DNA of 64,000 bases from Candidatus Binatia bacterium. GTDB lineage: Bacteria; Desulfobacterota; Binatia; HRBIN30. The first letter of the stretch is position 1. Every line of letters starts with the position of its first letter. Below, piece after piece: positions 24,224-26,022 of the stretch. The notes under the pieces are model-generated. The model was not told the origin of the DNA. It saw only the letters and a list, made by a program, of their open reading frames with translations, and made no database searches. Position numbers and translations under genes: made by a program. The stretch is taken from NCBI GenBank assembly GCA_937925685.1, contig CALAMI010000007.1, positions 1 to 64,000 of the forward strand, written 5' to 3'.

Positions 24224-24562
24224 TCAGATTGCATCCGCTCCGCGCTCGCCGGTGCGGATGCGCACAACCTCGTCCACCGGCAGCACGAAAATCTTCCCGT
24301 CGCCGATGCGACCGGTTTTTGCGGTGTTTTCAATGAGGCGGGCACAAGCCGCCGCCTTGTCGTCGCTTACCAAAACCTCGATTTTGATTTTGGGCAGAAA
24401 GTCGACGACGTACTCGGCGCTGCGGTAGACTTCTGTGTGCCCCTTTTGACGGCCGAAGCCTTTCACTTCGCTCACCGTCATGCCTTGCACCCCCTCCCGA
24501 GCCAGCGCCTCCTTGACCTCGTCTAACTTGAACGGTTTGATAATCGCCTCGATCTTCTTCAT
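24224..24562 (-). CDS. glnK: PII nitrogen regulatory protein (GlnK/GlnB)
   Basis: The 112-residue trimeric signal protein senses ATP/ADP and 2-oxoglutarate. Starting at ATG 24562, the T-loop tyrosine falls at position 51 ([11 protein letters not shown]), the uridylylation site. The [11 protein letters not shown] nucleotide-binding signature is intact. A GTG two codons upstream is an alternative start. It lies between the porin (28 bases) and amt (22 bases), the classical partner of Amt. Confidence 0.96.
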
Positions 24563-24590
24563 GGCCACACCCTGATGATGGCGAACAGAG

Positions 24591-25877
24591 TCAAAAGGAG
24601 TAAATCAGCTGCGTGAGAATTTGGTCCTGGCCGCGGTTTAGGTTGCCGTTGTGGTCGAAGATCTTCGCGCTGGCGTTATCGTGGCGATATTCTGCGCGCC
24701 AGAGAAGTCCTTCCGTCAGGCGGTATGCCAGAGTTGGGGTAACCGCCCACGCGGTCACGCCGTTGGGCACGCTAGCGATCGCAAACCTCGAGCCGTCGGT
24801 ATCATCGAATACTTCGCCGCGGAGCGCGAACTGCAAGTCGTCAGTCAACTGAGTGATCACATAGCCGGCCCCACCATACCATTCGGCCGTTTTCGATGGG
24901 TCCGAGAGCTTGGCATCCTCTTCGCTCCCATAGGTGAGTTCCCCCATCAGCGTGATTTGTTCGTGCGGCTTCAATGTGGCAACGATCGTAGTCAGGCCAC
25001 GGCGCGAATGGCCGTTGTTGTTTTGCTCCGGTCCATAGATTCCCGCAATGTAGACGTTGAACAGCTCGCTCGGGGCAATGCTCAAGCCACCATGGACGCT
25101 CTTCCCGTCGTTGTTGTCCACCACGTTATCCCAGCCATTGACAATACCTAGGTCCAGGACGAGCACGTCGTTGAATTTTGTGGTCGCCATGAGCCCGGTG
25201 TGCGTAAACGGAATGCCAAAGCCGAAGTTGAACGAACGAGTGATGTTGTAGTTGTGATTGTCCCAACTCTCGATGATTTCGGCCCCGTGCTTCGTGACGA
25301 ACTTTCCGGCCGTAAGCTTGATATCGAGATCGATGGGAAGCTGGTACGTGAGGTAAGCTTCCCGAAGTTCAATGGAGTTTTGCCGCTCCGCAGTGTTGCT
25401 GTTGCTCCAGTTCGTCACCCCACCGACGACCTCGGCAACCTTGCCAAAGTCGAGGTTCACAACAAATCCAACTGGCTCTTTCTCCTTTTGCCGCTGGAGG
25501 TAGAGATTGGCCTGATCGAGCTGGAACGAATTCGCATCCGGGTGGAAAACGGCAAGGCCATTCGCTTTCGAGTCGGGACTGTTGATGTTGTAGTTGTAGC
25601 TCCCTGCCACGAAGCCGTGGATGTCGATCCCTAACGAGGCGCTGACTTTCTCACGTACCCCTTGGACCTCCCGCTCGAGCTGACCTACACGCTGGCTCAA
25701 TCCCCGCTCTTGACCCGCTTGCTCACGCGCCTGTAACCGCTGTTCGAGAGCTCGGACCCGCTTTTCAAGCTCGGCCTCCTTGCCCTCGGCGTAAACCGGC
25801 AAAGCCGACAAGCACATCGCGCCTACCGCGCCAACCGCCAAGGCTCCCCAGACCTTTGAAACATCGCTTCCTCTCAT
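24591..25877 (-). CDS. OmpL-like beta-barrel porin (BBP2-type)
   Basis: The 428-residue protein starts at ATG 25877 with GAGGAGGTC upstream. It has a signal peptide (ending LPVYAEG), an N-terminal coiled coil (about 32-80, [16 protein letters not shown]) and a long beta-barrel domain with alternating strands. Features are [27 protein letters not shown] and the C-terminal aromatic LTQLIYSF typical of outer-membrane barrels. I place it in the putative beta-barrel porin-2 group. It is the first gene of a porin-glnK-amt unit, so it may bring nitrogen compounds across the outer membrane; that is inference from context. Confidence 0.85.
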
Positions 25878-25929
25878 TGCGCTCGACCTCCTCAGAGCTG
25901 TGACCGTCTCAACGACGATCACAGGCGCG

Positions 25930-25945
25930 AGCAACGCTAATGCCA
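25930..25945 (-). promoter_or_regulatory. Sigma-54 (RpoN) promoter-like site before porin-glnK-amt
   Basis: On the minus strand the site reads TGGCATTAGCGTTGCT. The GG and GC dinucleotides are spaced by ten bases, as required for -24/-12 elements; five of seven bases match TGGCACG and all of TTGCT match. Transcription would begin near 25917, giving a leader of about 40 bases before the porin ATG. Confidence 0.7.
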
Positions 25946-26006
25946 CAAGCGGCCCCTCGCAGTTCTGGAAAGTCGGGCTGACTGCGGTCGAGCGGATTAC
26001 CCCTCT

Positions 26007-26022
26007 GCACAGGAGGCTGTGC
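26007..26022 (-). promoter_or_regulatory. NtrC-like enhancer candidate
   Basis: GCACAG-CCTC-CTGTGC is a perfect 6-bp inverted repeat centred about 70 bases upstream of the -24 element. NtrC sites follow GCACY-N5-RGTGC; this one is one base longer in total (16 rather than 15), so assignment is tentative. Confidence 0.4.

Follow-up and report, generated by a model that had tools for sequence, protein, structure and literature searches.

The window, the whole 64,000-nucleotide stretch of a Candidatus Binatia bacterium contig that was analysed, carries on its minus strand three closely spaced genes for an outer-membrane porin, a PII signal protein and an ammonium transporter, preceded by predicted promoter elements and followed by a terminator. 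In the direction of transcription, the features are as follows.

26039-26055, minus strand: candidate NtrC-type enhancer site 1, TGCTGATTTCGTGGGCA, of the form TGCY-N9-RGCA
26020-26036, minus strand: candidate NtrC-type enhancer site 2, TGCTGCTTCAACCAGCA, of the form TGCY-N9-RGCA
26007-26022, minus strand: GCAC-N8-GTGC palindrome pointed out by an earlier sequence-only reading, probably not functional
25930-25945, minus strand: predicted sigma-54 -24/-12 element, TGGCATTAGCGTTGCT, from matrix score and conservation
24591-25877, minus strand: BBP2 outer-membrane porin, 428 aa (PF07642, 259.7 bits), with a predicted N-terminal coiled coil and 16-strand barrel
24224-24562, minus strand: glnK, PII signal protein, 112 aa (PF00543, 117.2 bits)
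22708-24201, minus strand: amt, ammonium transporter, 497 aa (PF00909, 401.5 bits; TIGR00836 above cut-off)
22636-22674, minus strand: intrinsic terminator 3' of amt, with a 15-pair stem and a T-rich tail

The gene order porin, glnK, amt, as proposed in the sequence-only reading, is borne out by the Pfam profile search, in which the porin match covers residues 84-428 (gathering cut-off 26.2), except that amt lies outside the interval 24224-26022 to which that reading referred. Porin and glnK are separated by 28 bases and glnK and amt by 22, and the three genes would presumably be co-transcribed. The PII and Amt genes are adjacent on one strand and thus form an Amt-GlnK pair, and glnK encodes a tyrosine at position 51, the uridylylation site in E. 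coli. The strong terminator said to close the unit was located at 22674-22636, where the stem-loop has a minimum free energy of -34.3 kcal/mol (z -5.0); its loop of 9 exceeds the limit of 8 in our consensus terminator scanner, which did not report it. An Rfam search of 22000-28000 returned nothing at gathering scores. Elsewhere in this 95%-complete genome no further BBP2 protein was found, so that the count is one BBP2 protein, two PII genes and two Amt genes, the second PII/Amt set being an amt-PII-glnA operon on contig C15.

An RpoN-type GG/GC site had been proposed 5' of the porin. Such an element, TGGCATTAGCGTTGCT, is indeed found at 25945-25930, separated by 52 bases from the porin ATG at 25877, and its GG and GC are spaced as in a -24/-12 promoter and set in TGGCAY...TTGCW surroundings; from the spacing of the element, a transcription start is predicted near 25919. 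The strict pattern TGGCAYN5TTGCW occurs five times in the 3.7-Mb genome versus 16 times for the reversed pattern used as a control, as if such sites were avoided. The four other strict matches lie on contigs C2, C11, C12 and C13, and at least one of the five is inside an apparent gene. No nitrogen-assimilation gene was seen among the ORFs scanned near these four, which include genes for a histidine kinase (C12), IF-3 (near C13) and an AurF-like protein with a TPP enzyme (C11). The window contains one more -24/-12-like sequence, TGGCTCGCGGCCTGCA (39701-39716, minus strand; score 15.0), which is not accompanied by an NtrC-type site.

Loss of the element in relatives had been set beforehand as a ground for rejecting sigma-54 control, and the element turned out to be conserved. 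A porin relative was detected at E 1e-10 in 93 of 148 genomes of the class, from which 28 new loci and 40 fetched stretches were read, weaker or fragmentary matches being left out; the nearest named genome, with 90% porin identity, is that of bacterium HR30, which is unclassified at NCBI and which we take to belong to Binatia. Starting from 96 porin rows, we removed three duplicates (L002, L025, L027) and three with short upstream sequence (L016, L033, L057), while L030 gave no tblastn match. The 450 bases upstream of the resulting 90 non-duplicate porins were scored with a -24/-12 weight matrix whose frequencies were set by hand, using a cut of 12.5 that was chosen after the two-peaked score distribution had been seen. 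This score was reached before 27 of the 28 porins with a PII gene within 600 bases downstream, before one of eight that have Amt in this interval but lack PII there, before 17 of 51 with neither PII nor Amt in at least 600 bases of downstream sequence, and before all three porins cut by a contig end. Among the controls, it was reached by 84 of 4500 shuffles, four of 90 reverse strands and none of 93 porin interiors. Collapsed to genera, or to named groups where the loci have public names, the 28 PII-linked porins make up 15 groups, of which 14 have the element, the sole exception being the Myxococcales locus L018. Given that L018, seven of the eight Amt-only porins and 34 of the 51 unlinked porins have no element, control differs between lineages. 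At seven loci, all from genomes of family f5 (L025, L054, L055, L082, L084, L087, L097), the top-scoring 16-mers, CGGTATGAATCTTGAA and close variants, are nearly identical and have no -24/-12 GC. They precede the porin match by 257-422 bases and may belong to a gene further upstream or form a conserved element of another kind.

Upstream of the promoter, two tandem palindromes of the form TGCY-N9-RGCA are likely to act as an enhancer. Measured from the -24 element, sites 1 and 2 lie 110 and 91 bases upstream, and in two genomes of the same genus the corresponding distances are 110 and 109 bases for site 1 and 91 and 90 bases for site 2; the four-genome promoter alignment that contains both sites has a mean column identity of 56%. 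The motif was spotted by eye in promoters set side by side and was tested afterwards. It occurs in 22 of 27 PII-linked promoters, with 0.58 expected from shuffles, while each of the other spacers from 0 to 20 occurs in at most seven of the 27. It is found before six of 21 sigma-54-positive porins without PII directly downstream and before two of 42 sigma-54-negative porins. TGC-N11-GCA also ranks first among 896 combinations of three-base palindromes and spacers, with occurrences in 11 of 14 representatives. At one mismatch, a purely descriptive count gives at least two sites in 26 of the 27 promoters, with spacings that are mostly 18-21 or 29-32 bases. PMC8743547 quotes the E. coli NtrC box as TGCACCAnnnTGGTGCA, a sequence of 17 bp; the motif has the same length and the same TGC/GCA ends as this box but differs in its inner bases.

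The GCAC/GTGC palindrome that had been offered as a sign of NtrC is present in the sequence, but the conserved elements are the two palindromes adjoining it. Its spacer is 8, versus 7 for the E. coli NtrC box. Exact GCAC-N8-GTGC occurs in one of 48 sigma-54-positive porin promoters, that of the window itself, and is absent from both same-genus genomes; at one mismatch it occurs in eight of 48, no more often than with other spacers. We have rejected it as an NtrC site, and it is very likely that it had been mistaken for one.

The same signature appears to mark a wider set of nitrogen genes. The composite pattern, a TGCY-N9-RGCA enhancer together with a -24/-12 promoter, gave 89 matches, spread over 59 of the class's 148 genomes, versus two for the reversed control, in a scan that includes the promoters from which the motif was derived; two of the 89 matches, both in genome G257, fall on one shared promoter. 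In the window's genome, the single match is the porin-glnK-amt promoter. When 30 of the 89 matches were read downstream, 24 led to porin, PII (glnB), amt or glnA genes: seven to a porin, seven to PII-glnA, five to amt, two to PII-amt, one to PII and two to glnA, with none of these genes at the other six. Among the six, three first ORFs were scanned, of which two had no Pfam match and one, in a single genome (L151:208-1374), resembles a methylamine dehydrogenase heavy chain gene. In three operons with the order PII-amt-porin, a -24/-12 element stands before PII (scores 15.5, 14.9 and 12.1, the last below the cut), each with one TGCY-N9-RGCA site before PII, which indicates that the porin stays in a nitrogen-type unit despite the change in order. 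At the amt-porin locus L017, neither a -24/-12 element nor a TGCY-N9-RGCA site was seen. Before the amt-PII-glnA operon of the window's genome there is only a weaker element, scoring 12.7, with one enhancer site at 81 bases, this promoter signature lying within the called start of amt. The class consists mostly of uncultured bacteria, and TGCY-N9-RGCA combined with -24/-12 provides a usable nitrogen-regulon signature for it.

A lack of rpoN had been named beforehand as a further ground for rejection, and RpoN is encoded in the genome (PF00309, 67.1 bits, cut-off 23.8), as is GlnD (759.3 bits, cut-off 519.4). One protein exceeds the TIGR01818 cut-off for NtrC, by a margin of 3.4 bits (562.0 versus 558.6), and its gene (contig C7, 108267-109727) lies about 83 kb from the operon on the same contig. 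It was the only one of ten proteins tested to pass, although several others score well, one of them with 495.8 bits. The histidine kinase adjoining NtrC falls short of the NtrB cut-off (184.4 bits versus 240); the AtoS model gives it a better score, 280.5 bits, which is again short of the cut-off (646). Since the genome has nine full-length sigma-54 activators (PF00158), NtrC is put forward as the activator on the strength of the form of the motif and of its targets.

The structure of the porin was predicted from 19 sequences with a mean pLDDT of 74 and shows N-terminal helices at residues 34-82 followed by 16 long strands. In Foldseek, the porin resembles general and specific porins alike, while OprP and OprO rank at the top in VIA-align (Z 25.9 and 25.7, 13% identity; rmsd 3.1 over 308 aligned residues for the first and 3.1 over 311 for the second). 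A PDB sequence search with the porin gave one irrelevant match (E 5.9). The barrel has a net charge of -18. Negative charge was considered as a sign of ammonium selectivity and was rejected, as 43 of 43 porins at PII/Amt loci are negative and so are 27 of 28 without linkage or element. A block of ten residues, invariant in the porin alignment, was likewise rejected as a selectivity motif because WDNVVDNN had served as the search peptide; it is exact in 25 of 96 porin rows. PII or Amt genes occur in 14 of 19 named porin loci, partly without the sigma-54 element, which suggests that the porin is tied to Amt itself and not only to a type of promoter. The named-locus records come from Nitrospinota, Nitrospira, Omnitrophota, Acidobacteria, Gemmatimonadetes, Kapaibacterium and Myxococcales, and a plasmid search with the porin returned seven records at 27-29% identity. 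At one locus (L079:3539-5464), a sigma-54-positive porin without adjacent PII is followed by a nitrite/sulphite reductase-Rieske protein, and in a Planctomycetia relative of the porin (L007:4069-5223) an in-frame stop codon interrupts the matched sequence.

Taken together, the regulators, the promoter element and the shared enhancer motif lend strong comparative support to sigma-54/NtrC-type nitrogen control of the unit, and it is very likely, as far as genome comparison can tell, that sigma-54 and an NtrC-type activator control the porin-glnK-amt operon. Sigma-54 RNA polymerase would transcribe the three genes as one operon from 25945-25930, switched on by an NtrC-type activator at the tandem TGC-N11-GCA sites (26055-26020). 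When nitrogen is limiting, NtrC would be phosphorylated through the GlnD/PII/NtrB cascade, leading to joint production of porin, GlnK and Amt. The porin would then raise the permeability of the outer membrane to ammonium, and perhaps to other small nitrogen compounds, at low outside concentration, while Amt would carry ammonium over the inner membrane and GlnK would gate Amt. We consider this proposal as a whole, an NtrC/sigma-54-driven operon that is induced by nitrogen limitation and serves porin-Amt-GlnK uptake, to be well on the probable side. The identity of the activator, the induction by nitrogen starvation and the substrate of the porin are what we infer from these data. The porin is likely to let ammonium or another small nitrogen compound in through the outer membrane, both membranes would probably be opened together to scarce nitrogen, and two-membrane nitrogen uptake is a reasonable reading of the locus. 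Ammonium uptake is usually described for the inner membrane only. If our proposal is true, a porin that several lineages retain in an Amt-GlnK operon under nitrogen control would mean that, at low concentration, nitrogen uptake can be limited by the outer membrane, and this porin is a specific candidate to test. OprP is induced by phosphate starvation, and it is nearly as probable as its opposite that such BBP2 porins are a nitrogen counterpart of the OprP kind, i.e. a dedicated, starvation-induced partner of Amt-GlnK in several phyla with a pore tuned to ammonium, kept in an NtrC/sigma-54 operon despite shifts in gene order.

The most serious competing explanation leaves the operon nitrogen-regulated and changes the cargo: the porin might serve urea, amides, amino acids or nitrite, or be a general pore, and so not be specific for ammonium. 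We hold this to be a substantial possibility, while rating it below its denial. PMC5877670 and PMC11064514 describe FmdC of Methylophilus as a porin whose substrates are short-chain amides and urea, the fold is common to general and specific porins, and at L079 it is a nitrite reductase-Rieske protein that follows the sigma-54 porin; however, the presence of PII or Amt genes at 14 of the 19 named loci, which span several phyla and partly lack the element, ties the porin to Amt. It is unlikely that the sigma-54 promoter is driven not by NtrC but by another of the genome's full-length activators, of which there are eight. Several of the nine full PF00158 proteins do reach good scores with the NtrC model (495.8 bits in one case), and the inner bases of the motif depart from the E. 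coli box, yet the motif keeps the length and the ends of that box, in relatives it also precedes glnB-glnA, amt and glnA, and the NtrC cut-off was passed by one of ten proteins. We give almost no credit to the idea that the -24/-12 match and the palindromes arose by chance before a constitutive operon. A degenerate 16-base match would indeed be weak alone, with five strict matches in the genome and at least one inside an apparent gene, but chance is contradicted by the controlled conservation of promoter, enhancer and composite pattern, and a promoter scan listed no sigma-70-like promoter in 22500-26150.

In a literature search that was not exhaustive and covered its sources in part, we did not find a BBP2-glnK-amt operon described. 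The closest statement was a remark on KSMBR1_3177, a BBP2 porin of Kuenenia stuttgartiensis that is highly upregulated under ammonium limitation and for which the authors propose ammonium influx (PMC7438415, in part); it figures there as a single hypothetical gene, and the likeness is one of description, not of sequence or surroundings. Two further outer-membrane porins are, like the porin here, tied to nitrogen supply. In Pseudomonas aeruginosa, NtrC binds the oprD promoter and OprD is under GlnK-NtrB/NtrC control according to the relevant part of PMC13029640, and Methylophilus has FmdC; in contrast to the present porin, neither is described within a glnK-amt operon in these partial sources, and both are set beside it by description, not by sequence. 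OprP and OprO of P. aeruginosa, which the passage in PMC5877670 presents as substrate-specific phosphate porins, are the nearest solved folds and of the same 16-strand type, a likeness at the level of fold to a predicted structure. Unlike OprP, which is rich in Arg and Lys as described there, the barrel here is net negative, at about 13% identity. The nearest regulatory parallel is the enterobacterial glnK amtB unit, for which control by NtrC is established and which a table in PMC4987338 lists as an NtrC target. As in enterobacteria, glnK and amt stand together behind a predicted sigma-54 promoter with upstream NtrC-type sites, whereas here a BBP2 porin is the first gene and the inner bases of the enhancer sites differ.
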